Shown here in pieces: positions 11,195-50,379 of a stretch of DNA of 59,267 bases (its first letter is position 1; every line of letters begins with the position of its first letter). The notes beneath the pieces are model-generated. The model had not been told where the DNA came from, did no database searches, and saw nothing but the letters and a program-made list of their open reading frames with translations. Where the stretch lies: contig JAMPAC010000015.1 in the NCBI GenBank assembly GCA_023667395.1, positions 1-59,267 of the forward strand, given 5' to 3'. The translations under genes were made by a program, and so were the position numbers. Origin of the DNA: Blautia sp. GTDB lineage: Bacteria > Bacillota > Clostridia > Lachnospirales > Lachnospiraceae.

Positions 11195-11303
11195 ATTCCA
11201 GTTCCGCCTCTTCACTCCAGCGCCCAATGATCTGAAAGTGATGTTCAGACGCCGTGCGTCTGAAATCCCTTTCGGGCGCTTCCGTTCCGAGGCTGTTTTT
11301 ATT
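11195..11303 (-). repeat. Hairpin leader repeat, copy B1 (before rfbC)
   Basis: This is the first of two identical 109-base tandem units. Read on the plus strand, the stems are GCCTC/GAGGC (11206-11210 with 11289-11293), AGCGCCC/GGGCGCT (11219-11225 with 11274-11280) and TTCAGACGC/GCGTCTGAA (11244-11252 with 11256-11264). On the minus strand the unit runs directly into the rfbC SD: CGGAACTGGAATAGGAG. Confidence 0.9.
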
Positions 11304-11412
11304 ATTCCAGTTCCGCCTCTTCACTCCAGCGCCCAATGATCTGAAAGTGATGTTCAGACGCCGTGCGTCTGAAATCCCTTTCGGGCGCTTCCGTTCCGAG
11401 GCTGTTTTTATT
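11304..11412 (-). repeat. Hairpin leader repeat, copy B2 (identical tandem unit)
   Basis: This is an exact repeat of the unit at 11195-11303. It differs functionally in that the minus-strand box CGGAACTGGAATA continues into ATAAAAACAG of the next unit instead of into an SD. Confidence 0.9.
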
Positions 11413-11477
11413 ATTCCAGTTCCGCCCCTTCACTCCAGCGCCCCCGCTCTGCGCTCCCCGTTCCGAGGCTGTTTTTA
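11413..11477 (-). repeat. Hairpin leader repeat, copy B3 (truncated)
   Basis: This third unit keeps the two outer boxes but has lost the central hairpin. It abuts the stop codon of the lysozyme gene, where the minus strand reads TGA then TAAAAACAG. Confidence 0.85.
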
Positions 11478-12743
11478 TCAAAAATAACTGATATCCATAT
11501 CCACATTTCCCTGGATGCCGTCCACACTGCCCCGGGAGGTGTACTGCCACATCTGGTAGTATCCCTGGTAGAGCGGCGCGCTCCTGTATTCCGCAAGCCA
11601 GATACAGTAATTATCCAGCCGGTCGGTATACAGATTATTATTATACCAGTTGCGGCTGGCGTATACTCCCGCGTCGTATCCCGCATTCTCTATGGTACGG
11701 CAGAACGCCTCGCAGACCAGCGTCCTGGTCTCCGGATCCAGGCCGTCAGCCCTTCCGTTTCCCCCGGCGCCCTCCGTATCGATAAAAATGGGATAATCGA
11801 TCTGATAATTCCGAATCAGTTCCAGCACAACGGACGCCTCTTCCACCGCCTCCACCTCGTTTACCGCCTGGGTAAAGAAATAGATTCCCGTCAGCACGCC
11901 GCTGGCCCGCGCCCCCTTGATATTCGCCTCAAAATAAGGATCCACCACCAGGCTGCCCGTAACGGAACCACGGTATCCGGCACGGATGATGGCAAACTGG
12001 ATTCCTGCGCCTTTTACCCTGTCCCAGTCGATCTCCTTATTCCACTTGGACACGTCGATCCCTAGCCGGGCATTGCCGGAGGTGGCCTGGAAGTTCCTGA
12101 TCTCGGTCTTGTCCGCATCCGCCACGGCATCCGCCACGGCGGTATCCTCCGCCTCCGCGTCGATCTCCTCCTCAGTCTTGATCAGCGCCGAGATATCATC
12201 GATGGCCACATATTCAACCTTATCCTTCACATGGACCCGGGTCTCGTTGTTTGGCACGCGGTATCCGGATATGGGCAGCAGTTCCACATAATACTCCCCG
12301 GAATCCAGGTCGCCGATGTAAATAATGCCGTCCTTGTCCAGATCCTTGTACTCTCCCACGTCTTTCAGCGATACATAAAAGCTTTCCCCCGTGACCGGCT
12401 TTCCCTCATTATCCACGATCTGGATACGGAGATCCTTTTCCACGGAAGTAACCATCAGGGACAATCGGTTGGACTGATCCCGTGCGGCCTCCAGGATGGA
12501 ATTGATCTCTGCGTCAAAGAAAGTCTCGTCCCGCATAAATGCTGACAGGTCATCGCCGACCTGTCCTGTGGCGTTATATTCCTGTTCCGCCTGGGGTTCC
12601 GGGCTTGGACTGCCCTGCGTAGTTCCCTCCGCCGATCCGGTATCGTGTTTATGATCCATATTTGCCCACGCCACCAGGATGGAAACCAGCAGGATCACTG
12701 CCATGGAACCCAGGATCGCCAGTTTTCTCAGCCTAGAGTCCAT
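11478..12743 (-). CDS. Membrane-anchored GH25 lysozyme (small form)
   Basis: The 421-residue protein has a short cytoplasmic start, one membrane segment at about 8-27, a helical spacer, a beta-rich module at about 94-185, an acidic linker and a GH25 muramidase domain at 225-421. Catalytic residues are visible: Asp230 in GIDVSKW, and Asp322 and Glu324 in FIDTEG. It should cleave the glycan backbone of peptidoglycan outside the membrane. The beta module is related to one in the larger lysozyme at 15002-17881. The ATG lies 11 bases inside the end of rfbA, so translation is probably coupled. A lysozyme inside a nucleotide-sugar operon suggests a role in placing or releasing wall-linked glycan. 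Confidence 0.9.
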
Positions 12744-13602
12744 TTGCTACCTCAACCATATATTTCCCATAATTTGTCTTCATCAAAGGCTCCGCCAGTT
12801 TCAAAAGCTGCTCCTTGTCAATAAATCCCCTCTTGTAGGCGATTTCCTCGACACAGGAAATATACAGCCCCTGCCTCTTCTGGAAAGCCGCCACGAAATC
12901 GCTGGCGTCCAGCAGGGCGTCATGATTCCCCGTATCCAGCCACGCAAATCCCCGTCCCAAAGGTTCCACATGGAGCGTTCCCTTGGCGAGATATTCGTTA
13001 TTCACACTGGTGATCTCGATCTCCCCCCTGGCGGAGGGCTTTACGTTTTTGGCGATCTCCACCACATCATTGTCGTAAAAATACAGCCCCGGCACTGCGT
13101 AGTTGCTTTTGGGCTTCTCCGGTTTTTCCTCAATGGAAACAGCCCTGCCGTTCTCGTCGAACTCCACCACCCCGTATTCCCTGGGGTCGCGGACATAATA
13201 GCCGAAGATGGTAGCCCCCTTTTCCCTGGCCGCTACTTCCCTCAGCACCCTGGAAAAACTCTGTCCATAGAAAATATTATCGCCCAATACCAGCGCCACC
13301 CTGTCGTTTCCGATAAATTTCTCGCCGATGATAAAAGCGTCTGCCAGCCCCCTAGGGGATTCCTGTATCTCATAGGAAAATTCCATGCCCAGCTGATGAC
13401 CGTCTCCCAGCAATTCCCTGAACACGGGAAGATCCCTGGGGGTGGAGATGATCAGCACCTCCCGGATCCCCGCCAGCATCAGCGTGGACAGCGGATAATA
13501 GATCATGGGCTTGTCATACACCGGCATGATCTGTTTGGATACGGCCTTTGTCAGGGGATACAGCCGGGTTCCGGACCCGCCCGCCAATATGATACCTTTC
13601 AT
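12733..13602 (-). CDS. rfbA: Glucose-1-phosphate thymidylyltransferase
   Basis: The 289-residue enzyme starts [18 protein letters not shown], the pyrophosphorylase signature with its phosphate-binding loop, and has VLGDNIFYG near 108. It makes dTDP-glucose from dTTP and glucose-1-phosphate, the first step toward dTDP-rhamnose and dTDP-amino sugars. The ATG at 13602 has a full AGGAGG 9 bases upstream, supplied by the intergenic hairpin repeat. The open frame continues to 13674 but that part only reads the repeat. Its stop overlaps the start of the lysozyme gene. Confidence 0.96.
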
Positions 13603-13611
13603 AAGATATAA

Positions 13612-13726
13612 CCTCCTATTCCAATCCCGTCTCTTCTCTACAGCCCCCTGCTCTGAAAGAAATTTCATCTGCAAAAAACGCAGCTGAGAATTTCTTTCGG
13701 GGGCTTCCGTTCCGAGACTGTTTTTA
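13612..13726 (-). repeat. Hairpin leader repeat, copy A (before rfbA)
   Basis: The nested arms, given on the plus strand, are GTCTC/GAGAC (13629-13633 with 13714-13718), GCCCCC/GGGGGC (13643-13648 with 13699-13704), GAAAGAAATT/AATTTCTTTC (13655-13664 with 13689-13698) and CTGC/GCAG inside. On the minus strand it begins with TAAAAACAGTCTCGGAACGG and ends in GGAATAGGAGG, the rfbA SD. Confidence 0.9.
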
Positions 13727-13745
13727 GTCTGCGAAAGACACGCCG

Positions 13746-13773
13746 AATGGGAACGACGTCCATCGTTCCCATT
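13746..13773 (-). other. Strong hairpin between rfbB and rfbA
   Basis: AATGGGAACGA and TCGTTCCCATT form a perfect 11-bp stem with a 6-base loop just after the rfbB stop. No T-run follows, so it may protect or process the transcript rather than end it. Confidence 0.6.
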
Positions 13774-13787
13774 TATCCGGTTCCCTT

Positions 13788-14870
13788 TTACTTTTCATAC
13801 ATATCCTGATAATACTTCTGATAGTCTCCGCTGGTCACATTTTTCATCCACTCCCCATGCTCAAAGAACCACGCGATGGTCTTTTTGATACCCTCCCTGA
13901 ACATGGTCTCCGGTTCCCAGCCAATCTCCTTTCTGATCTTGTCAGGCGCTATGGCATACCTGCGGTCATGACCTTTCCGGTCCTCCACATAGGTGATCAG
14001 GTCTGTCGTCACCAGCGCCTTTCTGGGATCGTCCTCAGACAGCATCTCCTGCAGGGTCTCCAGGATGATATGGATGATCTCTATATTCTGTTTCTCATTG
14101 TGGCCTCCGATATTGTAGGTCTCAAACAGCTTTCCCTGCTCCTGCACCATATCGATTGCCTTCGCATGGTCTTCCACGAAGAGCCAGTCGCGGACATTCT
14201 TCCCGTCCCCGTAGACCGGAAGCTTCTTTCCCTGAAGCGCATTGTTGATGATCAGGGGGATCAGCTTCTCCGGAAACTGATAAGGGCCGTAATTATTGGA
14301 ACAGTTTGTAATGTTCGCCGGGAAATGGTAAGTGTCCATATATGCCTTTACCAGCATGTCCGAACCGGCCTTGCTGGCCGAATAGGGACTGTGGGGATCG
14401 TAAGGCGTGGTCTCATAAAAGAACGCGTTATCGTCGTCAGGCAGGGAACCATATACCTCGTCCGTGGACACATGGAGGAACTTCTTCCCCTCCGGGTAGC
14501 TTCCGTCCGGCTGCTCCCATGCCGCTTTCGCGCAGTTCAGCATCACTGCGGTGCCCAGCACATTGGTCTGCACAAAGACTTCCGGGTTACGGATGCTTCT
14601 GTCCACATGGCTCTCCGCCGCAAAATGCACCACCCTGTCGATATCGTTCTCCCCAAAGATCCGGGCGATTGCTTCCTTGTCGCAGATATCCGCCTTTACA
14701 AACGTATAATTCGGCCTGTTCTCTATATCTTTCAGGTTCTCCAGATTTCCTGCGTAAGTCAGGGCATCCACATTGATGATGCGGATCTCGTCCCCATACT
14801 TGCGAAACATATAGTGGATATAGTTGGAACCGATAAACCCTGCTCCGCCGGTCACCAGATAAGTTCTCAT
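13788..14870 (-). CDS. rfbB: dTDP-glucose 4,6-dehydratase
   Basis: The 360-residue extended short-chain dehydrogenase has the NAD-binding GGAGFIG at 8-14, the dehydratase triad segment STDEVYG at 135-141 and the catalytic YSASK at 163-167. It converts dTDP-glucose to dTDP-4-keto-6-deoxyglucose, the branch point for rhamnose (RfbC) and for amino sugars (aminotransferases at 26159-27286 and 47196-48299). I chose the ATG at 14870, where MRTYLVTGG begins the Rossmann fold; the upstream in-frame ATG adds residues not found in the family. A promoter-like TGG-TAAAAT lies about 50 bases upstream. Confidence 0.96.
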
Positions 14871-14915
14871 ATTTCTTTCCCTTTCATCCGCCATAACTGC
14901 CATGGATATGGATTT

Positions 14916-14924
14916 ATTTTACCA
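14916..14924 (-). promoter_or_regulatory. Possible extended -10 promoter before rfbB
   Basis: On the minus strand TGG precedes TAAAAT at 14921-14916, inside the near-palindrome CCATA...TATGG. No convincing -35 is present. It would give rfbB and the export genes a start independent of the lysozyme gene. Confidence 0.4.
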
Positions 14925-15001
14925 TATATTGACATATTATGGCTATCTTTTTTTTAACAGTTCAACCCACTCATTCATAAAAGCATCTGACGCCGCAACT
15001 G

Positions 15002-17881
15002 TTAATACCCTAAATAACTCAGGTTCATATCCACATTTCCGCTGATGCCGTTGACGCTTCCGTTAGAACGGTACTGCCACAGATCGTATCTTCCCGTATA
15101 AGTAGGCGCTGCCGCATACTGGGCCAGCCAGATCTTGTAAGCGCTCAGTTCGCTTGCATTAATCTTGCTGGTGAACCATGTCTTATTGGCATAGATCCCG
15201 GCTGTATAACCAGCCCGCTGTATGGTCTCGCAGAATGTCTTACAGACCGCAGTCCTGGTAGCCACATCGATGGAATCCGCGCGCCCGCCGCTGGGCTCCA
15301 CATCCAGGAATACGGGATAGGATATCTTATATCCCCTGATCTGCTCCAGTACCATGGATGCCTCTTCCACAGCCTCCACCTGGTTCACCGCCTGGGTGAA
15401 GAAATACACTCCGACTTTCAGGCCGGCCGCCGTAGCGCCCTTGATATTGGCGAGGAATTTCGGATCTTCGATCAGGCTGCCCTGGGACGAACCCCTGTAA
15501 CCACATCTGATGATCACATAGGAAACGCCGGAGTTGCTTACTGCCGTCCAGTCGATGTTTCCGTTCCACTTGGATACGTCGATTCCCATGTTGCCGGAAC
15601 CTTTCACCAGGGAACCGTCGCTGGCAAAATTATATTTGGCGCCCTGGATCACCTGTTCGCCGGTGACTTTGTCGCCACTGGCAGTAAAATAGTAGACATT
15701 GCCGTTTAAGGTCTGCCATCCGGTATACCTCTCGCCTACTTCTATGAAAAATTTATCAGCCGTATAATAATCTGCATATCTGGCCGTGTCATACTTGCCG
15801 TCCCGCAGTACAAGCAGCGGATTGCCGCTGTTGTCCTTCAATACCGTGCTGTGGTCATCCTTGGGATGCGCCTTTACCGTAACCGTGAATTCTGCGTGTG
15901 CAGCAGTCTTGCCATCCTCTGTGTAACTCACTTCGACGACCGTATTGCCCGCCTTGACCCCTGTAACCGTGATTGTGGTGCCTGACACAGTTACCGTAGC
16001 CACGCCGGTATCTTTCGACACTGCCGACACTACAGGGGAAGCTGCCGTCGCCCCCGTCGGCGTAGCCGTCACAGTCGTGGCAGTGGTGGCAAGCATTGTG
16101 ATCGCCGATTTATCCAGCGACATTCCCAACGGTGTGGGAGTGGGCGATGCAGAGGGTGATGGTGTCGGCGTTACAGTAGGTGATGGCGTCGGCGTTACAT
16201 CAGGTGACGACGACACCTCAGGGGAAGTGACCGGTGTGGTCGGTTCCTCCGGTGCAGGTTTGTCTGTCGGATCTACAGTAGGTTCAGGAGTTACCGTTGG
16301 TTCCGGTTCAGGAGTTACCGTTGGTTCTGGCGTTGCCTCATCCGGAGAGGGTGACGGATTTTCCGACGTCCCTGACTCCTCTTCCACCCTGTTCAGGCTC
16401 CCCACCCCTCTCGTGGACACAAGCGTGCTGGGATCCGGAATATTGCTCTTGGGCACCTCATTGTAAATCTTCTCTATAACCTTGCTCTCCACCCACGCAA
16501 CCGTATCCTGCAAGACGGACTCCACCTCGGTGACATTCTGCTTGGTATCCTCCTTTGCCGCGTTGACCTCCGATTCTTTCTTGATCTCGTTGGCCACATC
16601 CACCTTTTGATAATCGATATCCTTTTTTACTTCCACTTTCTGGGACTTGTCGGACAGTTGGTAATTACTGTACTGATCGCTGGAAAAAGGCTCCATGACC
16701 ACCGTATAATTGCCGGGAGTGAGATCCTGCTTATAGATGATGCCGTCCATATCATCATCGGACCAGACTGCGCTCTTGCCGTCAGGCCCTGTCACCGTCA
16801 CGGCAAAAGGCACGTTGGAGATCAGCTTGCCATTGGTTTTGTTGATAAACTTGATCTTCAGGTCTTTCTGCACGGATGTCAGGCTCAACGTCACTGTGAC
16901 CTCCCTGCCGTATTCCGCTTCCTGATAGTCCTTGGGCGGCTCTGCAACCTGATCCTGAACGGCTTCCGCCGCCGCCATGCGCGCCAGTTCCGCGTCAGCC
17001 ACCGCCAGCAGTCCCTGCTCCCCGATGGTGTCAATCCCCTCCAGCTGGCTGCCCACACTGACGAAATCGGCCACCTGCGCCTTCACGGTCCGGGAACTGA
17101 TATACATGCCCCCGGTCACCACTGCCAGCGCCAGTACCGCCACGCCCGTGGCCAGGATCACCTTGTCCATGACGCCCATGGAAAGCATCCCCTGCCACAG
17201 TTTCTTAAAGAATCCCCCCTGGGAGGGCTCTTCTAAGCCGTCCTCATATCCGTCTTCCTCAAGCTGGTCTTCCGCGTAATACTCCTGATCCCCCTCATAC
17301 TCCGCTTCCCCGTAATACCCTGCCTCGCCGGATACTGCTTCTTCTGCATCCTCCGCGCTTTCATAATATTCCGCCCCTTCATAAGACGCTTCATCCGCAG
17401 GCTCCGCTTCCCCGTAAGATTCATCATCTTCCGCATCGGCGTAAAACGCCTCGTCCGCAGGCTCCGCTTCCCCGTAAGATTCATCATCTTCCGCATCGGC
17501 GTAAAACGCCTCGTCCGCAGGCTCCGCTTCCCCGTAAGATTCCGCCTCGCCGGAGGCCGCTCCTTCCGCATCCTCCGCACTCTCGTAATATATTGTCTCG
17601 TCGTAAGCCGCCTCTTCCGCAAACTCCTCTTCCCCGTAATATTCCGCCTCGCCGGAGGCCGCTCCTTCCGCATCCTCCACGCTCTCGTAATATGCTGTCT
17701 CGTCGTAAAATGCCTCGTCCGCATCGGCGTAATATCCGGATTCTCCGTCTTCTATAGATTCTTCTTCCTCAAAATATTCTTCTTCCCCTTCATATTCCGG
17801 TTCATCCCAGTCATAATCGTTCTCGTCATAGCCTTTCCAGTCCTCCGTGGGTCGCTTTGTATGGTTGAACAATTTCTTCAT
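15002..17881 (-). CDS. Large membrane-anchored GH25 lysozyme with acidic cytoplasmic repeat domain
   Basis: The 959-residue protein has an unusual layout. A strongly acidic, Tyr/Glu-rich N-terminal region (1-225) with imperfect and exact repeats is followed by one membrane segment (240-261), a beta module (328-430) shared with the lysozyme at 11478-12743, a Pro/Thr/Ser linker (502-585), a bacterial Ig-like domain (587-671), choline-binding/GW-like aromatic repeats (715-762) and the GH25 domain (765-957). Catalytic Asp768 (GIDVSKW), Asp860 and Glu862 (FLDVEP) are present. It should hydrolyse peptidoglycan outside, while the acidic part stays in the cytoplasm. It is first in its operon, with a near-consensus promoter. 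Confidence 0.9.
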   Translation of the reverse strand: MKKLFNHTKRPTEDWKGYDENDYDWDEPEYEGEEEYFEEEESIEDGESGYYADADEAFYDETAYYESVEDAEGAASGEAEYYGEEEFAEEAAYDETIYYESAEDAEGAASGEAESYGEAEPADEAFYADAEDDESYGEAEPADEAFYADAEDDESYGEAEPADEASYEGAEYYESAEDAEEAVSGEAGYYGEAEYEGDQEYYAEDQLEEDGYEDGLEEPSQGGFFKKLWQGMLSMGVMDKVILATGVAVLALAVVTGGMYISSRTVKAQVADFVSVGSQLEGIDTIGEQGLLAVADAELARMAAAEAVQDQVAEPPKDYQEAEYGREVTVTLSLTSVQKDLKIKFINKTNGKLISNVPFAVTVTGPDGKSAVWSDDDMDGIIYKQDLTPGNYTVVMEPFSSDQYSNYQLSDKSQKVEVKKDIDYQKVDVANEIKKESEVNAAKEDTKQNVTEVESVLQDTVAWVESKVIEKIYNEVPKSNIPDPSTLVSTRGVGSLNRVEEESGTSENPSPSPDEATPEPTVTPEPEPTVTPEPTVDPTDKPAPEEPTTPVTSPEVSSSPDVTPTPSPTVTPTPSPSASPTPTPLGMSLDKSAITMLATTATTVTATPTGATAASPVVSAVSKDTGVATVTVSGTTITVTGVKAGNTVVEVSYTEDGKTAAHAEFTVTVKAHPKDDHSTVLKDNSGNPLLVLRDGKYDTARYADYYTADKFFIEVGERYTGWQTLNGNVYYFTASGDKVTGEQVIQGAKYNFASDGSLVKGSGNMGIDVSKWNGNIDWTAVSNSGVSYVIIRCGYRGSSQGSLIEDPKFLANIKGATAAGLKVGVYFFTQAVNQVEAVEEASMVLEQIRGYKISYPVFLDVEPSGGRADSIDVATRTAVCKTFCETIQRAGYTAGIYANKTWFTSKINASELSAYKIWLAQYAAAPTYTGRYDLWQYRSNGSVNGISGNVDMNLSYLGY
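17401..17520 (-). repeat. Exact 60-base tandem repeat inside the lysozyme gene
   Basis: Two identical 60-base copies encode a 20-residue unit (YGEAEPADEAFYADAEDDES), and a partial third copy follows at 17521. Exact DNA identity points to recent duplication and to possible length variation of the acidic cytoplasmic domain. Confidence 0.95.
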
Positions 17882-17948
17882 ATCTTGTATCCTTTCTGCC
17901 TCTCATTCCCCTATGAATACATCATCTTGAGTGTAACAATTCCGTAAC

Positions 17949-17977
17949 ATTATACCATTGCCTGCCTGCTACTTCAA
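17949..17977 (-). promoter_or_regulatory. Promoter of the lysozyme-rfb-export operon
   Basis: On the minus strand TTGAAG (17977-17972), a 17-base spacer and TATAAT (17954-17949), preceded by TGG. This is one of the best promoters in the window and would drive the operon that runs down to about position 223. Confidence 0.85.
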
Positions 17978-18033
17978 GCAAATAACGCATTTCTTCATAA
18001 ATTCTTAATTCTTCTTAAAGTATCTTAATATTG

Positions 18034-18062
18034 TGGACTTTCAATCCGCATAATAGTAAAAT
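18034..18062 (+). promoter_or_regulatory. Possible promoter of the plus-strand SGNH gene
   Basis: TGGACT, a 17-base spacer and TAAAAT stand about 60 bases before the ATG at 18123. The match is moderate. The region 17882-18122 holds this and the divergent lysozyme promoter and no other gene. Confidence 0.4.
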
Positions 18063-18122
18063 AGCAATAGCTTTTCAAAAAGCGCAACAGCAGCAGTTCC
18101 CTGAAATGAAACGGAGATCAAA

Positions 18123-19271: not shown

Positions 19272-19280
19272 GAACGGATA

Positions 19281-20042: not shown

Positions 20043-20051
20043 AAAACCTCC

Positions 20052-21116: not shown

Positions 21117-22903
21117 TCTTCCACACCCTTTCTCATCACCAGGATCTCATCCCCATAAACGCCGGGATTGCGCATCATCATCTCTGCCATGCTGAAACCG
21201 TATTCTTCCGAGAGGATCGTCAGGACTTCCATTTCGTCCACCCCTCCCTTGACCAGCAGCACCACCTCGTCCAGTTCCGCAATGCTTTCCCTGTCCGTCC
21301 TGTTTTCCAGTTCTTCCAGCGTCAGGAGCAGCGTCCTGTCATATTGGGTAAATTCCAGCAGATTCTCATAATAGCCCACTCCGTCATAGATACAGATGCA
21401 GGGATGTTCCGCGTATGCCCCGGCGCACTTTCTCTGCAGATCGTATCCTTTATAGAGATAGCTTCCGTCATAATACACCAGATAAAACACCTGGAAGACC
21501 ACCAATATCTCACAGACGGTAAGCGTCAGCTTCCTGGTCAGCCTTTCCGGGTAGACTTCATGGATCTTTCCCAGGAATTGAAATACCGCCAGCATCAAAA
21601 TCAATGCCGCAAAGGGGAAAAGGGGCATGATGTAGCGGTCCACCAGATAAGGGGACATCCTGGCCGCCAGCAGGAAATAACCCGCCACAGGGAACAGGAG
21701 CATCCACCAGAATGCACGGTTTCCCCTTTTCCTGTCGCTGCCTGCGCCGTCAAGCGACACCCTTCCTTTTCTCCGGCTCCGCATGCCCGCCCACAGCACA
21801 GCCGCCAGCAGGATCACCAGGCAGAGTGAAAAATAACCGATGCCCCGGTCCAGCAGGATCCTGCCGAAAGCCAGCAGGCGCGTGCCGTATCCCGACAGTC
21901 CCCGGGACAGATTCCCCAGCGCCTCCACCCCCCTGCCGCTGGAAAACACGTCCGCGATGGCAAAGGGAAACGCCAGCACTCCCACCAGGGCGGCGACCGC
22001 CATGGAACGCACGAAGCAGAACAGTTCCCTCCTGCGCCCCTCCTTTCCCAGGCACACGCTGACCACAGCGGCCAGCAGCAGGCAGTAAAACAGGAAATAA
22101 TACTGCGTCCAGAACCCCAGCATGGTGACCAGGATCAGCCTGCCGTTCTTCCTGTCAAAGGAGGCGTCCTGCCATTTTTTCCATATCAGGTAAAAGTACA
22201 GCACGCACCAAAGCGTCAGCACCCCGTACATACGGATCAGCAGCACCGTCACCTGCGCCCCCGTGGACAGTCCGTAAAAGAGCGCCGTCATCAGCCCCAG
22301 CCTGCGCCCCTCTTTCCCCAGGCCAAGCCCCGGTGCCGTCATGCGGCATATCCTGTACAGCAGCGCCATGACCCACAGAACCGCAGCCATATTGATCACG
22401 CAGCCCATCCACGGGGAAATCCTGCCCTGAAACAGGGAAGATACCGTGTGCAGCAACATAAAATGCAGGGGCGGATGATTGTCGTCCTTGACATTAAAAT
22501 AAACCGACAGATAGTGAAAGGCGTCCCCCCGCCCCACGGTGATATAATCCTGAAACTGCTCCGAAGTGATCCACACCGGCTCCTCATAAACATCCGCGGT
22601 ATATGTCAAAAGCTTACTGTTCCCACGGTTCTCCAGCACATCTTTCACCGTGTCCGCCAGATTGCCCACCGTCTCTCCAAAGGTTCCGCCGTCTATCTCA
22701 TTGTGCACGAATTTGGCCAGCCGCCCCTCCGGCTGGGTGGGCACGATCCAGGGGTTAAATTCCGCGTTGGCCAGTTCAAAGCTGAGCAGTTCATCCATGT
22801 GATAGCCCTGCTTGCACGACACAAAAAAGCAGAACACTGCCGCACAGACCAGCGTCACCAGGATCTCATATGCGTTTTCCTTTATTTTTTTTCCCATTTT
22901 CAT
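21113..22903 (-). CDS. GT-C membrane glycosyltransferase, GT39/PMT-like
   Basis: This protein of about 596 residues has many membrane helices. HMDELLSFELA sits after the first helix and DDNHPPLHFMLLH follows further on; these Asp-Glu and His-Pro-Pro-Leu motifs are typical of the PMT/ArnT group, which transfers sugars from polyprenyl phosphate outside the membrane. The C-terminal soluble part (about the last 130 residues) has DRTLLLTLEEL. I chose the ATG at 22903 with GGAAAG 8 bases upstream; an ATG at 22909 and a GTG at 22948 are also in frame. It starts about 50 bases after the preceding gene's stop. Confidence 0.75.
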   Translation of the reverse strand: MKMGKKIKENAYEILVTLVCAAVFCFFVSCKQGYHMDELLSFELANAEFNPWIVPTQPEGRLAKFVHNEIDGGTFGETVGNLADTVKDVLENRGNSKLLTYTADVYEEPVWITSEQFQDYITVGRGDAFHYLSVYFNVKDDNHPPLHFMLLHTVSSLFQGRISPWMGCVINMAAVLWVMALLYRICRMTAPGLGLGKEGRRLGLMTALFYGLSTGAQVTVLLIRMYGVLTLWCVLYFYLIWKKWQDASFDRKNGRLILVTMLGFWTQYYFLFYCLLLAAVVSVCLGKEGRRRELFCFVRSMAVAALVGVLAFPFAIADVFSSGRGVEALGNLSRGLSGYGTRLLAFGRILLDRGIGYFSLCLVILLAAVLWAGMRSRRKGRVSLDGAGSDRKRGNRAFWWMLLFPVAGYFLLAARMSPYLVDRYIMPLFPFAALILMLAVFQFLGKIHEVYPERLTRKLTLTVCEILVVFQVFYLVYYDGSYLYKGYDLQRKCAGAYAEHPCICIYDGVGYYENLLEFTQYDRTLLLTLEELENRTDRESIAELDEVVLLVKGGVDEMEVLTILSEEYGFSMAEMMMRNPGVYGDEILVMRKGVEE

Positions 22904-22954
22904 AACCATATCTTTCCACAACCTGAAATTCCTGGCAACGCCGGACACCAGGTC

Positions 22955-28266: not shown

Positions 28267-28327
28267 CCTCCCATTCCAGTTCCGTTTCTGCACTCCAGTG
28301 CCCCTGCTCTCCTCCCGCTACCGTTCC
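28267..28327 (-). repeat. Hairpin leader repeat, copy C (short form)
   Basis: On the minus strand it runs from GGAACGG, which overlaps the end of the upstream coding region, to CGGAACTGGAATGGGAGG, the SD of the GtrB-like gene. The central stem is mostly lost. Confidence 0.75.
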
Positions 28328-29868
28328 CTGTTCTCTGTCTTGATGTACATGATGCCGTCGATGATGCGGATGGAATCTTTGCCCGGAAAGCTGTCCATGG
28401 CCTCGTATTCCTCCGAATAATACATCTCCGCCATGGCCTCCGGGGGCTGTATGTTCAGGGTCGCTCCTAGGTAATGCCTGATAAATTCCCGGTAATTATC
28501 GGCTGTATACAGCAGGCTGTCGCCGTTTAAACCGATCATATTGGAAGTCACCCGCAGGGAAATATCCGTATTGGGATATTGCTCGTCGCTGACGTATCCG
28601 ATCATGGCAATGGGAATTCCGGGATAATACCCATCCGTCTGTTCGATCCGGTCAAGCAGGCGCACACAATAAGCATATGTCTTCTCATAACGCTTCTCCA
28701 GATTGGAATAGGCGATATTATCCGCCACCGCATAATGGAATACCAGCACAAAAGCCGCGCACAGCGCCGCCCACTCCGTCCACACGAAACCCTTTGCCTT
28801 CCCATGGCTCCTTCCCGCAAACGCCAGCATCCCGATCAGGAGCAATACCCACTGATACCGCATCAACAGATGATAATTCACGTCTGGCGAGATCAGGAGG
28901 ATCACATTGGCGATCACGGGAAAAATTACCAATACAAGTGTCATTATAACGAAAAAGAACGAATTTTTCCACCCCTTTCTGTTCCGCATCCCATAAAAAG
29001 CCGCGCCGACTGCCGCCAACAGCAGGAGCAGGCAGGCAGCGGCCGACAAAGCGCTCTGAAAAACCACATTCCCTTTCAGGGAAAAGGCGAAGAAATCATG
29101 GTACATATTTGGGATTGTCTCAAGCAGGCGGCCTGTCAGCCTGCCCGAAGCCATATCATCGATCCCCTGGTAAGAGGCAAGTTCCTTTCCCTGTACCTTC
29201 AACAGGATCTGAAGGATCAGGTAATAAAGCGCCACTCCAATGACACCCATATACAGATAACGTGCAGCTTTCTTTGTTTTCGCCTTTACGCTTTCCTCCC
29301 CCGCCGCCAGCATCAGGATGCCATACGCCGAGAGGATCATGGCAAAAGGCAGGTATGCCTGATAGGTTCCCATGCTGAAAGCCAGGCACACCCCTCCGGG
29401 AAGAAATCCTTTGTTATATTTTTTCGTGAACAGCGCCGCCAGCACCGCCAAAAGCAGCGCCAGCATATACCCGTCCATGGTGAAAACGTAGGCGAAAGTG
29501 GAGGCCAGCGCCGGAAAGGAGACCAGAAGCCCGCCTGTCAGCACAATCGCCCATGTCCGGCGGATCTCCAGGAATTCCACCAGCGCCGCCGCTGCCAGGG
29601 CGAGGAAAAACAGTCCCAGCACCCCGATCAGCCAGGGGATGGTAAAAAAGGAAGAAAATCCACATGCCACCATCAGGAACCATCTGCCGGAAGTGATCAT
29701 ATTCTGGTCGAAATACATGCTGGCAAGCCCGTCATGATTCGGGATGTCCGACAAAAGCACCGGCATATGTATCAGCAGCCCCATGCTGAAAGTCGCAAGA
29801 AATGCTGTTTTCCATTCCCTTTTTACGACCCCCCGATTCAGTTTTCCAAATAATTCTTCCGGTGTCAT
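28318..29868 (-). CDS. Glucos_trans_II-like membrane glycosyltransferase
   Basis: The 516-residue polytopic protein has an early outer loop SDIPNHDGLASMYFDQNMITSGRWF. The acidic residues and the T-S-G-R-W motif are typical of the Glucos_trans_II family (PF14264), which uses polyprenyl-phosphate glucose to decorate surface glycans. Its partner GT2 lies directly downstream. The ATG at 29868 has AGGAG 7 bases upstream, inside a copy of the hairpin repeat. The soluble C-terminal part (about the last 120 residues) is probably outside the cell. Confidence 0.75.
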   Translation of the reverse strand: MTPEELFGKLNRGVVKREWKTAFLATFSMGLLIHMPVLLSDIPNHDGLASMYFDQNMITSGRWFLMVACGFSSFFTIPWLIGVLGLFFLALAAAALVEFLEIRRTWAIVLTGGLLVSFPALASTFAYVFTMDGYMLALLLAVLAALFTKKYNKGFLPGGVCLAFSMGTYQAYLPFAMILSAYGILMLAAGEESVKAKTKKAARYLYMGVIGVALYYLILQILLKVQGKELASYQGIDDMASGRLTGRLLETIPNMYHDFFAFSLKGNVVFQSALSAAACLLLLLAAVGAAFYGMRNRKGWKNSFFFVIMTLVLVIFPVIANVILLISPDVNYHLLMRYQWVLLLIGMLAFAGRSHGKAKGFVWTEWAALCAAFVLVFHYAVADNIAYSNLEKRYEKTYAYCVRLLDRIEQTDGYYPGIPIAMIGYVSDEQYPNTDISLRVTSNMIGLNGDSLLYTADNYREFIRHYLGATLNIQPPEAMAEMYYSEEYEAMDSFPGKDSIRIIDGIMYIKTENRER

Positions 29869-29869
29869 T

Positions 29870-29922
29870 CCAGTTCTCCTATTCCAGTTCCGTTCCTGCA
29901 TTTCTGCGCCCTTCAACACCCC
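29870..29922 (-). repeat. Hairpin leader repeat, copy D (short form)
   Basis: It fills the whole gap between the SGNH gene stop and the Glucos_trans_II start. On the minus strand it ends in CGGAACTGGAATAGGAG and then repeats AACTGGAATG over the start codon. Confidence 0.75.
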
Positions 29923-42287: not shown

Positions 42288-42329
42288 GACATTTTTCCCA
42301 TCGATTCCGGTTCGCAACGCGCCATATCC

Positions 42330-42358
42330 ATTTTACCCGAAAATAGAAATCTTGTAAA
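42330..42358 (-). promoter_or_regulatory. Promoter of the 42.3-37.2 kb operon
   Basis: On the minus strand TTTACA (42358-42353), a 17-base spacer and TAAAAT (42335-42330). It is divergent from the plus-strand SGNH gene. Confidence 0.75.
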
Positions 42359-42383
42359 TTCTCTTTCTTTTAGATTGAAAATA

Positions 42384-42392
42384 TGCTATAAA
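42384..42392 (+). promoter_or_regulatory. Extended -10 promoter of the plus-strand SGNH gene
   Basis: TGC precedes TATAAA at 42387-42392, about 32 bases before the ATG. The -35 region (TTTCTT) is weak. Confidence 0.5.
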
Positions 42393-42424
42393 ATTTATAT
42401 CATCATTTCGTTGGAGGAACCTGC

Positions 42425-43858: not shown

Positions 43859-43873
43859 AGAAACGGCGCCCTG

Positions 43874-45517: not shown

Positions 45518-45525
45518 CCTAACCT

Positions 45526-45652
45526 CCAGACCGCCTCCGGCGGCACAAACAATCGGTGCAAGTCTGGAAGAATCCGCAAAGCGGATTCTTCCCGGAATGA
45601 CTTAGATTTTCTTAGGTCGTGTACTTTACGACCTTAGAAAATCTTCATTCCG
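45526..45652 (-). other. Row of three strong hairpins between two glycosyltransferase genes
   Basis: The first has arms CCAGAC/GTCTGG around CCGCC-TCC-GGCGG (45526-45567). The second is a perfect 12-bp stem GGAAGAATCCGC/GCGGATTCTTCC with a 3-base loop (45566-45592). The third is a nearly perfect 24-bp stem at 45593-45619 with 45629-45652. No T-run follows. They fill the gap up to the SD of the membrane-protein gene. Confidence 0.75.
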
Positions 45653-45661
45653 TGCACACTT
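45633..45661 (-). repeat. 29-base repeat at a stop codon, copy 2
   Basis: This segment matches 35824-35852 with one mismatch. On the minus strand it follows the stop codon of the GT2 gene and forms one arm of the long third hairpin. Confidence 0.8.
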
Positions 45662-46588
45662 TTACCAGCCGATCTTCTCACGGATCACATATTGGGGCGA
45701 ATTGTTCAGGCTGATATAGATGCGCCCGATATACTCCCCGATCAGTCCCAACATGAGCATGATCATGCCTCCAAAAAATACGATCGCCGCCATGGTGGAA
45801 CTGAAGCCCATGGGCACGTCCGGGTTCACCAGCCTCTTTACGATCGTATAAATACCGTATAGGAATCCTGCGGCGGCACAGAATCCACCGATACCCGTGG
45901 CAATCCTCAGGGGCTTTACAGAAAATGCCGTGAAACCGTTGAACCAGAGCCCCATCAGCTTTTTAAAAGTATAGCCGGAAGTTCCCTCCTCCCGGTCCCT
46001 GTGATCCACAGGCACATTGGTGATGTTTTTCGTGGCGCGCAGCACCAGTCCGATCACATAGGGATAAGAATTCTCATACCGGATCATATCGTCCGCCACG
46101 AACCGCCTTACGGCAAAATAGCTGGATACATACAGATCCGCCGGTTTTCCCAGCATCACGCGCGTCATCCGCTCATTGACCATGCTGCCCAGATTCCGGA
46201 AAGCGGAATGGCGCTTATGCTCATATTTCGCATAGACGGCATCATAACCTTCCTCCAGTTTATCCAGAAGCCTGTCCACCTGGTCTGCGGGGGTCTGCCC
46301 GTCGTCATCCAGGCACACCACATAGTCCCCGCAGGAATGCCGGATCCCTGCCATCAGGGCAGAGTGCTGTCCGAAATTTTTCGCAAAACCGATGCCCCTG
46401 ATATTGGAAAATTCCCCGCAGAGCCGCCGTATGGTTCCCATCGTATTGTCCGGGGAACAGTCGTTGACCAGAATGATTTCGTACTCATACCGGTTCATCG
46501 TTCTCATCTTTTCGTTGATCTCCGCCACCACATGCGGGAGCGTGCGCTCCGACCGGTAGCAGGGAATCACAAAACTTATCTTTTTCAT
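45662..46588 (-). CDS. Polyprenyl-phosphate GT2 glycosyltransferase (ArnC/GtrB type)
   Basis: The 308-residue protein has a GT2 domain (MKKISFVIPCYRSE, LVNDCSPDNT, FAKNFGQHSALMAG, CLDDDGQTPADQ) and two C-terminal membrane helices (about 230-250 and 262-285). The order and motifs are those of ArnC/GtrB enzymes that load a sugar onto undecaprenyl phosphate. It precedes a GT-C-like gene, separated by the hairpin row. The 68-base gap before it holds only a short AAAACGCGTTTT palindrome. Confidence 0.9.
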   Translation of the reverse strand: MKKISFVIPCYRSERTLPHVVAEINEKMRTMNRYEYEIILVNDCSPDNTMGTIRRLCGEFSNIRGIGFAKNFGQHSALMAGIRHSCGDYVVCLDDDGQTPADQVDRLLDKLEEGYDAVYAKYEHKRHSAFRNLGSMVNERMTRVMLGKPADLYVSSYFAVRRFVADDMIRYENSYPYVIGLVLRATKNITNVPVDHRDREEGTSGYTFKKLMGLWFNGFTAFSVKPLRIATGIGGFCAAAGFLYGIYTIVKRLVNPDVPMGFSSTMAAIVFFGGMIMLMLGLIGEYIGRIYISLNNSPQYVIREKIGW

Positions 46589-46656
46589 CCGCTCTCATTC
46601 CTCTTTATTTATAACGTTCCAAAACGCGTTTTCAAAACCAATACTGAACAGCATTT

Positions 46657-47193
46657 CTATCGCCCACAGCCGTCCGAAACCGCCGCCATCCACTGAATAT
46701 CGTAATATTCCCCCTGGATCCTGACATCGTCTCTCAGAAGCCCCTCCCTGACAAATCCCGCCTTTTCATAGCTGCGGATCGCCTGTATGTTAGAGGCGAA
46801 GGCGCGCAGGTAAACACGGTGGAGCCTTTCTTCCTCAAAACAGTACCGCAGCATCAGCCTGGCCGCCGCCGTGCCGATGCCCTTTCCCCTGGCATCATCC
46901 TCGCCAATGAAGATACCGTACTCCGCCTTGTTGTGCTGCCTGTCGATATCCCGGATATAGACGGAGCCCAGGGGTCGTCCCATAAGGATATGGCAGATGA
47001 TCATCTGCACTACCCGCCCTGTCTCCACCTGATTCCTGACCCAGTTCTCATGCCCCTCCCTGGTAAACAGTTCCTGGTATATGAAATTTTTCCGCACGGC
47101 ATCCTTATTCCGCCATGATACGATCAGATCCGTGTCCGCCGCCGTCATCGGCCGCAGGAAAATACCTGCTGTCTCATCCTTATACTCTCTCAA
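46657..47193 (-). CDS. GNAT N-acetyltransferase, probably acting on an amino sugar (PseH/RimJ-like)
   Basis: The 178-residue protein has the GNAT CoA-binding motif in DDARGKGIGTAAARLMLRY and a C-terminal SYEKAGFVREG. Its position 2 bases after an aminotransferase gene suggests it acetylates the amino group that enzyme installs, as PseH, WecD or FdtC do. The start is TTG at 47193 with GGAGG 8 bases upstream, overlapping the previous stop region; the longer frame to 47280 is a shadow of the aminotransferase gene. Confidence 0.85.
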   Translation of the reverse strand: MREYKDETAGIFLRPMTAADTDLIVSWRNKDAVRKNFIYQELFTREGHENWVRNQVETGRVVQMIICHILMGRPLGSVYIRDIDRQHNKAEYGIFIGEDDARGKGIGTAAARLMLRYCFEEERLHRVYLRAFASNIQAIRSYEKAGFVREGLLRDDVRIQGEYYDIQWMAAVSDGCGR

Positions 47194-47195
47194 AC

Positions 47196-48299
47196 TTACC
47201 GCCTCCAGCCATTGCACAGTTCGATAACCCTGGCGATCTCCTCCTCCCGCATCTCCGGGAACAGGGGCAGCGTGACGCAATGCTCCGCCAGATATTCCGC
47301 ATTGGGACAGTCGCCTTTTCGATAGCCAAGATTTTCATATGCTTTCTGCAGATGGCAGGGAACAGGATAATGCATGTTGCACTCCACATCCGCCTCCGCC
47401 ATATATTTCAGGAACCCGTCCCTGTCCTCCACCGTGACCACAAACAGGTGGAACACCGGTTCCGTATTTTCCGGATGCCGCTGCATGGTGATCAGGGGAT
47501 TTACGATCTCTTTCAGATACCGTCCGCCGATCTCCTGCCTCCTTTTCGTCCACTCTGGCAGATATTTCAGGCTTACGCCCAATACCGCCCCCTGGATCCC
47601 CTCCAGGCGGTAATTATAACCCACCTCGTCATGATAATATCTCACGTCGCAGCCCTGGTTTTTCAGCCTGTAAATATGTTTATAGTAATCCTCCCTGTCA
47701 CAGGTAACGCTGCCTCCCTCGCCAAAGGCGTAAAGGTTCTTGCCCGGATAGAAACTGAAGCATCCCATCTCCCCCAGGGTACCCACATTCCTGCCCTCGA
47801 ACCGGGCGCCGTGGGCCTGGGCGCAGTCTTCCACCACAAACAGGCCGTGCCTGTCCGCGATTTCTTTCACCGCCCCATAGTCAAAGGGCTGCCCATACAG
47901 GTGGACGCCGATGATCCCCTTTGTCCTGGGCGTGATCTTTGCCTCCAGCGCCGCAGGATCGATCTCCCATGTATCGGCGGTGCAGTCGGCAAACACGGGA
48001 ACCGCGCCCGTATAGGTAACGCCCCATGCGGTGGCGATATAGGTATTGGCAGGCACAATGACTTCATCCCCCGGCCCCACCCCCAGCGCCAGCATGGCAA
48101 GGTGCAGGGCGGAAGTGCCGTTGTTCACGCCGCTGGCATACTTCGTGCCCACATAAGCGGCAAATTCCCTGTCAAAAGCCTCCGCGTATTTCCCGCCGGA
48201 AAACGCGGTCTCCCGGCATACCTGTGCGATGGCATCCTGATATTCCTGTTTATGCGCCTCATAATCCCTGGCCAGGTCGATCCTTTTGATATGCGCCAT
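47196..48299 (-). CDS. DegT/DnrJ/EryC1 sugar aminotransferase (FdtB-like)
   Basis: The 367-residue PLP enzyme has GVNNGTSALHLAMLALGVGPGD, GVHLYGQPFD, the PLP lysine in FSFYPGKNLYAFGEGG, and GYNYRLEGIQGAVL. These resemble the 3-keto-sugar aminotransferases FdtB/QdtB more than WecE. Such enzymes need a dTDP-4-keto-6-deoxyhexose 3,4-ketoisomerase, which is not in the window, so a 4-keto substrate remains possible. The adjacent GNAT should acetylate the product. AGGAGG lies 6 bases before the ATG, supplied by the hairpin repeat. Confidence 0.88.
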   Translation of the reverse strand: MAHIKRIDLARDYEAHKQEYQDAIAQVCRETAFSGGKYAEAFDREFAAYVGTKYASGVNNGTSALHLAMLALGVGPGDEVIVPANTYIATAWGVTYTGAVPVFADCTADTWEIDPAALEAKITPRTKGIIGVHLYGQPFDYGAVKEIADRHGLFVVEDCAQAHGARFEGRNVGTLGEMGCFSFYPGKNLYAFGEGGSVTCDREDYYKHIYRLKNQGCDVRYYHDEVGYNYRLEGIQGAVLGVSLKYLPEWTKRRQEIGGRYLKEIVNPLITMQRHPENTEPVFHLFVVTVEDRDGFLKYMAEADVECNMHYPVPCHLQKAYENLGYRKGDCPNAEYLAEHCVTLPLFPEMREEEIARVIELCNGWRR

Positions 48300-48305
48300 A
48301 ATGTG

Positions 48306-48590
48306 CCTCCTATTCCAGTTCCGTCTCTACACTTCAATGCCCCTGCACTGAAAGAAATTTCATCTGCATAAACCGCAGCTGGAAATTTCTTTCATGTGCC
48401 GCCCTCTGGCACATTGCATTTACCGTTCCGAGACTGTTTTTTATTCCAGTTCCGTTCCTACACTTCAACGCCCTTTGCGGGGAAGAAATTTTCATCCGCT
48501 CCTGCGTCTGAAATTTCTTCCGGGCGTTTCCGTTTCGGAACTGTTATTCCAGTTCCTGCTTGCAGGAACTTGTTCCGGTCTCTGCACTGC
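48306..48590 (-). repeat. Hairpin leader repeat, copies E1-E3 (tandem, diverged)
   Basis: Three units in a row fill the gap between two genes. E1 (about 48306-48440) has GTCTC/GAGAC, AATGC/GCATT and GAAAGAAATTTC/GAAATTTCTTTC plus an inserted TGTGCC/GGCACA hairpin. E2 (about 48441-48545) has GTTCC/GGAAC, AACGCCC/GGGCGTT and GGAAGAAATTT/AAATTTCTTCC. E3 (to 48590) is reduced to AGTTCCTGC/GCAGGAACT and a diverged tail. Confidence 0.88.
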
Positions 48591-48591
48591 T

Positions 48592-49317
48592 TTATATATT
48601 CTTCCTGATGTAGAACTCCCTGAACAGCCTGGCGATCTGTACCAGGTAGTTGCAGACGGTCTGAAAGACTTTTACGGTGGTGTTGTAATCCTCCTGCCAC
48701 TCCACCGGGTAATCCAGTATTTTCACGCCCCGCTTCTCCGCCCGGAGCAAAAATTCTATCATGTAGAACCAGCCGTTATCCTGGCTGCATCCCGCGATCA
48801 GGGACAGCGCCGTCTCCCTGCGCACAAAGGTAAAACCGCAGATGGCATCCGTGGACTTCATCCTTAGGAACAGTTTTAAGAGGATCAGAAGCCCCTGGGA
48901 AGTGATCCTGCGGTACCACTTCCTGCCCCGGGTATCGGATTCTTTCGCGAAACGGCTGCCATTGATATATTCCACCTCGGGGCGGTTTTTAAAGATATGG
49001 ATGGCCTCGCCCAGGTGCTTGATGTCAGTGGACAGGTCGATGTCCATGTATCCCACCACCTGGCCATGGCTGAGTTCCACGCCTCTCCTGAAAGCGGCTC
49101 CCACCCCCCGGATATCGATGCGCTCATATTGAACATGGTCATACTTTTTGCACAAAGTCCGGGCAATCCGGGGCGTCTCGTCCTCCGAGCCGTTATCCAC
49201 GATGATGATCTCATAATCCGAAAAAGATATCTTCTCCAGATACTCAACCGTCCTCGTGATGCCGCTTTCCAGCCGCAGCCGCTCATTTAATACGGGAAAG
49301 ATAATCGTCAGCATCAT
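48592..49317 (-). CDS. Soluble polyprenyl-phosphate GT2 glycosyltransferase (DPM1-like)
   Basis: The 241-residue protein is a single GT2 domain without membrane helices: MLTIIFPVLNER, VDNGSEDETP, GVGAAFRRGVEL, GYMDIDLSTDI and the late EWQEDYNTT. This is the layout of soluble dolichol/polyprenyl-phosphate mannosyltransferases. It starts inside the stop of the previous gene (ATGATG over TGA), so the two GT2 proteins are made together and might form a pair, one with and one without a membrane anchor. Confidence 0.85.
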   Translation of the reverse strand: MMLTIIFPVLNERLRLESGITRTVEYLEKISFSDYEIIIVDNGSEDETPRIARTLCKKYDHVQYERIDIRGVGAAFRRGVELSHGQVVGYMDIDLSTDIKHLGEAIHIFKNRPEVEYINGSRFAKESDTRGRKWYRRITSQGLLILLKLFLRMKSTDAICGFTFVRRETALSLIAGCSQDNGWFYMIEFLLRAEKRGVKILDYPVEWQEDYNTTVKVFQTVCNYLVQIARLFREFYIRKNI

Positions 49318-50264
49318 TGTGTCAGTTTTTCCACTCCTTCTATTACGTACCGCTGTTTCTTAAAACCCATGTTCAGCAGCACGGACAGATATTTCAATAT
49401 CAGGGTCAGCATGATGGATACCATAAAGAAGCCGAATGCCATCAGCATCATGATGGACAGCCAGCCCTCCACCGGACGCACCTTGCTGAAAATGGACCAG
49501 ATCAGGTAGATGAACATGATCACCAGTGCCCCCAGCAGCACCGCGCTGACCGTCATGGACAGTTTTTCCAGCACATTGGTGAAAATGATGATGGTATCCG
49601 CCGCCAGCGTGGTCCTGTTTCCTCTCTCTTCCCGATTGCGGCCCTTTCCCGCTGCGTCCAATTTATTATCATACACGATGGTATCCGTCTTCAGACCGCT
49701 GTTCATGTACATGGCCTTGCGGTATGGCACATAGGCGTTCATCTGATTGACCCTGTTCACCGCGCGCCTGGACACGATCCGGAAGCGTTCCTGCCGGATC
49801 TTTGCCCTGTATTTACTGCCCCAGTTGTACACCAGGTAAAACAGCCTGGATGTAAAGGACACCCCATATCTGGGAGCCGCCGCCACCACATCATAGCCCT
49901 GCAGCGCCCTGTGATACACTTCCATGATCAGGGCAGGCTCAAAATCCATCCTGCAGCTGTCAAACTCAAACAGGAAATCTCCCACCGCCAGGTCACAGCC
50001 CGCATTCATGGCGCACTCCGCCCCCTGGTAATAGCTGAGATTGATCAGGCTCACAACGGGATGCAGACTGCTTTCCGCCGCAAACGCTTTCACCTGCTCT
50101 ATGGTTTCGTCCACACATCCGTCGTTGACGCACACCACCTCATATTTTTCAAAATTCTCCTGCATCACCTGACAGATTTTCTCCAGGAAATCCCTCGCCG
50201 TATCTGCCTCGTCGTGCAGATACACCACGCAGGAGACGAAATTTTTCTCTTTGCCTTGTAACAT
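49314..50264 (-). CDS. GtrB-like GT2 protein with altered metal-binding motif
   Basis: The 316-residue protein has the fold order of GtrB (CVNDGCVDET, LINLSYYQGAECAMNAG, two C-terminal helices at about 230-250 and 265-290). Where active relatives have an Asp-x-Asp followed by Q-x-P-P, it reads FEFDSCRMDFEP. It may be inactive and serve as a membrane partner of the soluble GT2 it overlaps, or may have changed its donor. The SD is weak (GATAAGAA), because the box at the end of hairpin repeat F has mutated. Confidence 0.78.
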   Translation of the reverse strand: MLQGKEKNFVSCVVYLHDEADTARDFLEKICQVMQENFEKYEVVCVNDGCVDETIEQVKAFAAESSLHPVVSLINLSYYQGAECAMNAGCDLAVGDFLFEFDSCRMDFEPALIMEVYHRALQGYDVVAAAPRYGVSFTSRLFYLVYNWGSKYRAKIRQERFRIVSRRAVNRVNQMNAYVPYRKAMYMNSGLKTDTIVYDNKLDAAGKGRNREERGNRTTLAADTIIIFTNVLEKLSMTVSAVLLGALVIMFIYLIWSIFSKVRPVEGWLSIMMLMAFGFFMVSIMLTLILKYLSVLLNMGFKKQRYVIEGVEKLTQ

Positions 50265-50271
50265 ATGTTTC

Positions 50272-50379
50272 TTATCCCAGTTCCGTCTCTTCCTTTCGAT
50301 GCCCCTGTCCTGAAAGAAATTTCATCTGCCAAAACGCAGCCGGGAATTTCTTTCGGCATTTACCATTTCGAGACTGTTT
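50272..50379 (-). repeat. Hairpin leader repeat, copy F
   Basis: The stems, on the plus strand, are GTCTC/GAGAC (50285-50289 with 50370-50374), ATGCC/GGCAT (50299-50303 with 50355-50359), GAAAGAAATT/AATTTCTTTC (50312-50321 with 50345-50354) and CTGC/GCAG. On the minus strand the box TAAAAACAG contains the stop codon of the upstream oxidoreductase gene. Confidence 0.9.

Follow-up and report, generated by a model that had tools for sequence, protein, structure and literature searches.

The 59,267 nucleotides analysed here (the window; contig JAMPAC010000015.1 of the Blautia sp. assembly GCA_023667395.1) carry ten intergenic hairpin units at six places, all on the minus strand. These units belong to a genome-wide repeat family that extends well beyond the sugar locus in which an earlier note on this DNA had described them. 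The family is best read as an unnamed dispersed intergenic hairpin repeat, seen only in one genus among the genomes searched. It has a covarying structure, a high copy number and a patchy occurrence; its copies lie in one orientation directly upstream of Shine-Dalgarno (SD) sequences, and its sites turn over between close species with the SD kept. We consider it probable, with considerable room for doubt, that a modular dispersed repeat docks upstream of SDs in sense, folds away from them and is tolerated there.

The copy number is far beyond chance by two counts in the own genome (G000; 4.43 Mb, 206 contigs, 94% complete). A covariance model, R1, built from 47 units of this genome (four of them from the window), gave at least 134 matches at E up to 0.01, one of them an antisense overlap, with 150 of 3270 candidates scored. 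The 11-mer of the unit's tail, GGAACTGGAAT, occurs 146 times, against 2 occurrences of its reversed control; of 20 such places outside model matches that were inspected by eye, 13 stand just before an SD or a start codon and 7 in coding sequence. In the window, the model recovers seven of the ten units, the other three being decayed or truncated.

Outside the own genome the family has a narrow distribution. A strict pattern scan, biased to GTCTC outer stems, of one genome per species in 84,980 species found 77 stretches; the twelve assemblies that carry them bear the titles Lachnospiraceae, uncultured bacterium or bacterium D16-50. The covariance-model search of genome and relatives that had been proposed earlier proved productive: eight of 61 relatives were positive, the own genome included and all eight of the same genus, and across the genus 27 of 138 genomes were positive, again including the own. 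In an order-wide sample of 295 genomes the own genome alone was positive among seven members of the genus, and the 288 genomes of other genera gave no model match; these large searches used stricter filters and scored 13-64 candidates per genome, so that genomes with weak or few copies escape them. When eight named assemblies were searched singly, each gave 19-134 matches. The exact element pattern was not found in viral contigs, and phage and plasmid records gave no blastn match to the units at 11194-11411. Rfam 15 had no match at gathering threshold anywhere in the window; at E up to 5, the stretch 11180-13760 gave five weak hits, none of them fitting, of which one overlaps a unit (ylbH leader, 16.4 bits where 50 are needed). 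Among the open papers listed for this subject we found no description of the repeat, which does not prove its absence from the literature, and it may stand unnamed in a survey of structured RNAs from microbiomes.

The position is highly regular. Since simple calling of open reading frames (ORFs) misjudged some neighbours, position was judged by the presence of an SD-like motif (down to AAGG or AGGA) and an open-frame start within 90 nt. In sense, this applies to 91 of 97 assessable arrays of the own genome (102 in total) and to 84 of 89 assessable arrays of other assemblies (92 in total, one array being counted twice as L132 and L135), together 175 of 186. Read antisense out of the 5´ end, the same rule holds for 7 of 102 own and 2 of 81 other arrays, and random points satisfy it in 194 of 1020 and 165 of 920 cases, respectively. 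By eye, a start codon is still seen in most of the 11 failures, though not in L109 and L129. Copies are therefore not scattered relative to start codons (9 of 183 antisense, 175 of 186 in sense), and the tie to translation starts claimed in the earlier note is borne out. The 5´ end is less fixed: counting open frames of at least 100 codons, the distance to a co-directional upstream stop is 0-5 nt for 18 of 97 own arrays and for 8 of 74 others, and the stop falls within the array itself in 8 own and 5 other cases. The strict orientation reflects either directional insertion or a 3´ part that works at the SD. As a separate matter, L132 and L135 (contig CANOFQ010000042.1) hold the same array and downstream gene twice in opposite orientation; this inverted duplication may be genuine or may stem from the assembly.

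The genes behind the arrays are diverse. Named by eye from their first residues, they include infB, prfA, glyS, obg, der, purA, carB, murD, alr, fabF, greA and atpE types, in addition to permeases and regulators; essential genes are among them. Over all arrays no shared functional theme was seen by eye, without an enrichment test. The earlier note had placed the units before sugar and glycosyltransferase genes. In the window this is correct for six of six places (by Pfam, applied to window genes only), because the window is a polysaccharide cluster; elsewhere the genes are mixed.

A typical unit measures about 107 nt and is described here on the sense strand of the downstream gene. It starts with an A-rich run and CAG, followed by the outer stem P1 of 5 bp (GUCUC/GAGAC and variants). 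Inside P1, GGA-AC-GGA stands opposite GNA-GU-GNA, so that a covarying step of 2 bp is framed by two purine loops. P2 (AGCGCCC/GGGCGCU and variants), P3 (about 9 bp) and P4 follow. The tail CGGAACUGGAAUA closes the unit, usually with the SD directly 3´ of it. Between GGAAC and the final GAAU an optional second short hairpin may be present; by a rule that demands a perfect stem we counted 74 instances in 30 forms, mainly of the AATTGCC or AGTTCC types. Two loci of the own genome (L265 and L267, contig C33) represent a subfamily with the outer stem GCATC/GGATGC and a different interior, with the same tail and the same position at the SD. L036 and L048 repeat the tail alone, as a short tandem series (GGAACTGGAATCAAG...) immediately ahead of the SD.

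The nested structure is upheld by units from other assemblies. In the 47 own-genome units, 96.5% of 1218 cells are paired and both sides change in 18 of 26 pairs; the count of further pair types is not clearly above shuffles (51 of 500 as high). In the units of other assemblies, 95.0% of 3094 cells are paired, both sides change in 23 of 26 pairs, none of 500 shuffles reaches any of five pairing measures, and sliding abolishes the signal. This second test used 132 distinct rows, partial and antisense rows included, with one assembly being a close relative; these units did not serve to derive the structure, yet they were aligned to a model derived from it, and in both tests the cells represent related sequences and not independent events. 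When 148 units, all under 90% alike, were scanned pairwise for covariation, seven helix pairs took the top ranks, together with two extra pairs inside the presumed loop, 13-88 (A-U in 103 units, G-C in 7, but A-A in 25 of 148) and 14-87 (C-G in 122, U-A in 10 of 148). Some high-ranking column pairs, such as 97-101 and 3-23, are not base pairs and probably reflect subtypes.

Of the earlier claim of a selected structure tied to starts, the pairing and the tie itself stand, and selection may act at the level of RNA or of DNA. We regard selection at the RNA level as likely, although the excess of GU over AC is only modest: 62 against 33 in 91 own units and 87 against 16 in 106 others (alignments fitted to the model), and 81 against 44 over 18 pairs in a MAFFT alignment of 148 units, where 20 of the 81 come from one pair. 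A DNA palindrome maintained by templated repair could also yield paired changes. Single-step intermediates are scarce, for example TA 88, CG 53 and TG 3 at columns 41-53, which fits whole types being spread or swapped.

The claim that the element supplies the ribosome binding site is not supported by comparison with a close species. About 165 kb (mean identity over long alignments 91.2%), later about 310 kb, of the own genome were aligned with assembly JAMPFQ (G061). Out of 22 arrays tried, 7 lacked paired flanks and 15 had them, the latter representing ten distinct orthologous sites. Both genomes hold model units at five of these sites; four of the five differ in interior or array make-up and one is nearly identical. 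At the other five sites only one genome holds a model unit, and at three of them the other genome keeps the tail, a short unit or a short-hairpin remnant. Combining the array comparison with the list of indels, four sites have no recognisable element in one genome: G061 lacks it near 44.8 kb of G000 C55 and, in G000 C111, near 44.0 kb of the stretch analysed (where the leader may hold decayed traces), and G000 lacks it near 31.7 kb of G061 C22 and near 53.6 kb of G061 C6 (where the G061 copy is 5´-truncated). In all four element-free alleles GGAGG is still there, its spacing to the start codon unchanged to within 1 nt. The SD thus belongs to the gene, and the element abuts it. Furthermore, none of 77 tandem-array junctions contains GGAGG or AGGAG. 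One of them has GGAG, and seven, that one included, begin with TGGA or TGGG, possibly an SD-side remnant if new units arrive there. Several other indels were set aside: nos. 3, 5 and 8 are chance motif matches outside elements, no. 4 lacks the start region itself in G061 and no. 7 is a whole extra gene in G000, so that the last two were not counted as element-free sites.

How do copies arrive and change? They would arrive or spread by a process at the DNA or RNA level with the 3´ end anchored at the SD, and arrays would then grow, shrink and exchange interiors through recombination and slippage between the repeated GGAAC/GGAAT. Tandem arrays include identical units, which points to recombination, and in hairpin-less derivatives such as AACAGTCTC-GGAACTGGAAT the join lies at the repeated GGAAC. 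A few further sites (L275, L271, G000 C55 near 47343 and G061 C22) hold only CAGTCTC and GGAAC or GGAAT before the SD; by their sequence they look as if the hairpin had been deleted between short repeats.

One special form of such spread is RNA-mediated mobility, in which the transcript would be copied back while its 3´ end stays anchored at the SD, leaving variable and truncated 5´ ends. The fixed 3´ end, the sense orientation and the lack of a general target duplication agree with it. So does the asymmetry of truncation: in about 1.1 Mb, by our reading of the copies, 14 (12 distinct loci) are 5´-truncated with the tail at the SD, and one copy is 3´-truncated. The same bias would, however, follow from selection that preserves the SD and removes deletions reaching into it, and the identical tandem units resemble recombination. 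We hold RNA-mediated mobility to be quite improbable.

The flanks bear on another candidate, a classical miniature inverted-repeat transposable element (MITE), which would be a non-autonomous derivative of an insertion sequence with a DDE transposase, with conserved 5´ and 3´ ends and a preference for SD-like targets. MITEs typically have terminal inverted repeats and target duplications. Our repeats are interspersed, polymorphic and have conserved ends, and remnants such as TGGA before AACAG occur at the above seven of 77 internal junctions. Two sites look like duplications: in L031 (1549-1768) and its ortholog L122, a 13-bp direct repeat, GGAGGAAGCATGA, flanks the array and contains an SD and start codon, and in L182 the 10-bp word AATAGGAGAA, with an SD-like core, stands on both sides of the array. 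Over 179 arrays, however, a general target duplication is not found. Shared flank words of at least 12 occur in 9 of them (2.65 expected per shuffled set), seven of the nine being neighbouring element modules and two the single orthologous site L031/L122, and shorter words match shuffled pairing. Moreover, the unit ends, CAGTCTC... and ...GGAACTG, are not simple terminal inverted repeats, and no copy bearing an ORF was found in about 1.1 Mb. A classical MITE is an unlikely origin, if somewhat less so than reverse copying of a transcript. Six long candidates for an autonomous version were inspected by eye in the same 1.1 Mb, and none is an element around a transposase.

Repetitive extragenic palindromes (REPs) and the bacterial interspersed mosaic elements (BIMEs) that they form are clustered palindromes between genes, associated with the Y1 transposase RAYT. 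Our repeats are palindromic, intergenic and arranged in head-to-tail arrays as well, and the Y1 transposase domain PF01797 is matched in three element-bearing genomes (G014, G020 and G026). It is not matched in the own genome, nor in the element-bearing G001, G019, G021 and G025, and of the 12 genus members with a match (41 were tested) 9 have no R1 matches. The absence from the own genome and the position at the SD set the present family apart from REPs and BIMEs, and mobilisation by a RAYT seems very improbable.

A different explanation is a post-transcriptional regulon. The purine loops and the tail CGGAACUGGAAUA might bind an RNA-binding protein or the 30S subunit, placing more than 100 genes under common control at translation initiation. 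Such a regulon would account for the strict sense orientation at the SD, for the conserved purine loops with the two covarying extra pairs 13-88 and 14-87, and for the retention of the tail by 5´-truncated copies. There are also many GGA motifs beside the SD. CsrA binds GGA motifs, and CsrA homologues are present in 14 of 16 element-bearing genomes. They are, however, also present in 10 of 13 genomes without a model match, so that the presence of CsrA does not track the element. The downstream genes without a common function by eye, the occurrence in just 27 of 138 genus genomes and the differing sites in close species likewise speak against a regulon. We think it a rather unlikely explanation, though the least unlikely of the rivals. 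As to CsrA itself, the own genome has six family matches (C120, three in C130, C40 and C143), of which the five weaker copies score alike at 54-58 bits; G061 has five, and the others tested have 0-3.

Predicted folds close before the SD is reached. In 143 units the mean probability of the SD being unpaired is 0.58 with the native element and 0.47 with a dinucleotide-shuffled one, the native value being higher in 102 of 143. These predictions fit a self-contained leader fold that would neither free nor fully hide the SD. Sequestration of the SD was considered and rejected: in these predictions the native element conceals the SD less than its shuffled version, and more than is the case when the element is missing. 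We suggest that the hairpin, closing ahead of the SD, mostly keeps it accessible, and that insertion even before essential genes would therefore be tolerated; any effect of the element on translation or mRNA stability would be modest at most.

Several observations weigh against a docked and tolerated repeat as we propose it. Firstly, the near-perfect sense orientation and the conserved tail exceed what a tolerated parasite needs. Secondly, the element is predicted to lower the openness of the SD, from 0.69 in its absence to 0.58; with it the SD is more open in just 40 of 143 units, and in 43 of 143 the native openness falls below 0.5. Thirdly, traces of a mobiliser are missing where they were sought: no PF01797 in the own genome at 94% completeness, no ORF-bearing or autonomous element in about 1.1 Mb and no general target duplication at 179 arrays. 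Finally, the polymorphic sites possibly reflect loss and not gain, as the two-genome comparison does not determine the ancestral allele. In some orthologous pairs with just 72-79% identity, moreover, each gene has an element; these loci were chosen for containing elements (a biased choice), and in other pairs at similar identity this is not so. A bolder view would join the two ideas: a mobile structured RNA element directed to SD sites, which would thereby reach a few percent of all gene leaders, might be copied by way of RNA from a 3´ end anchored at the SD, and would be used or tolerated as an initiation module of over a hundred genes. We hold this view to be rather unlikely.

Among known systems, several share features with the present family. 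BOX elements of Streptococcus pneumoniae, the best-described comparable repeat, are likewise modular, folded, intergenic, of variable length, present in many copies and confined to few related species; the length of their arrays varies between strains, and clear links to gene function are few (PMC3049150). BOX lies more often than expected between convergent genes (16 of the 86 copies counted in Table 1 of that source), with distances to the nearest gene that follow the general intergenic pattern (PMC3049150). Of the present arrays, 175 of 186 run in sense up to an SD-like motif and a start codon. The TAACTGA repeats of marine Beggiatoaceae are alike in position. One genome has 170 sets, most of them facing the same way and placed shortly ahead of the start codons of unrelated and sometimes essential genes, with a patchy distribution; 132 sets run toward a start codon without a ribosome binding site and 15 toward one with it (PMC4679880). 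These are heptamers mostly without a ribosome binding site, whereas the present family is a covarying hairpin with the SD kept (PMC4679880). Prokaryotic MITEs are also small, interspersed, non-coding and polymorphic repeats (PMC10969869); target duplication is not the rule in the present arrays. Cis-regulatory leaders of Rfam resemble the family as structured and covarying 5´-leader RNA, and the family departs from them in the lack of a common gene class by eye, in its high copy number and in its differences between close species.

The units of the window, all on the minus strand, illustrate the variety of forms. All of the about ten units at six places that had been described are present, as are the quoted outer and middle stems. 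The opening and closing sequences ascribed to each unit are only a consensus: allowing three mismatches, the opening is found in six units (four exact). The closing sequence is seen at five places, in one of them exactly, and a further weak match to it, at 21262, lies outside the noted units. The statement that arrays often reach from the previous stop codon to the next SD is true of five of six places for either end. At five places the array begins at, just after or overlapping the upstream stop codon, the exception being the 13.7 kb array, which begins 61 nt past it; a clear SD and start codon follow at all places except 50.3 kb.

Upstream of the dTDP-4-dehydrorhamnose 3,5-epimerase gene (start 11182), a short unit at 11412..11477, with P1, the purine loops and P2 and without P3/P4, stands directly after the upstream gene's TGA and is followed by two full units in tandem, 11303..11411 and 11194..11302; the latter is nearest the start codon and adjoins the SD AGGAGA (11189..11194). 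The full unit at 13617..13726 precedes the SD AGGAGG (13612..13617) of a nucleotidyl transferase gene starting at 13602. A separate hairpin, GGGAACGATGGACGTCGTTCCC (13735-13770), lies between the upstream stop codon and this unit. The unit at 28273..28332 is decayed, with most of P1 gone (AACAGGGAACGG), and precedes the SD GGGAGG (28267..28272) and GTG start (28260) of a family 2 glycosyltransferase. It contains the upstream gene's stop codon (28318-28320), and its 5´ end (28318-28332) encodes the last codons of that gene, N-R-E-R-stop, and so seems to have replaced the gene's C-terminus.

At 29881..29922 a 5´-truncated unit directly follows the upstream gene's TAA and is succeeded by the SD AGGAGA (29875..29880) of a GtrII-type glucosyltransferase gene (start 29868). 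The array before the DegT/DnrJ aminotransferase gene (start 48299) begins directly after the upstream TAA with a 5´-truncated unit carrying a short hairpin, AGTTCCTGCAAGCAGGAACT (48546..48590), continues with a full unit with the outer stem GTTCC/GGAAC (48442..48545) and ends with a full unit into which a hairpin, AATGTGCC..GGCACAT, is inserted (48311..48441), the SD being AGGAGG (48306..48311). The last full unit, 50273..50382, stands before a start at 50264 with a weak SD (TAAGAAACATATG), and its opening TAA (50380-50382) doubles as the stop codon of the upstream gene.

Taken together, strict docking at the SD is a surprising property among dispersed intergenic hairpin repeats: the family is nearly confined to starts, keeps a single orientation there, precedes genes that are unrelated and often essential, and has sites that differ between close species. 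It also teaches caution, as covariation in a repeated hairpin need not imply a regulatory RNA. The family raises two testable questions, namely whether repeats can be targeted to ribosome binding sites, and whether a genome can rewire more than 100 gene leaders without loss of fitness.

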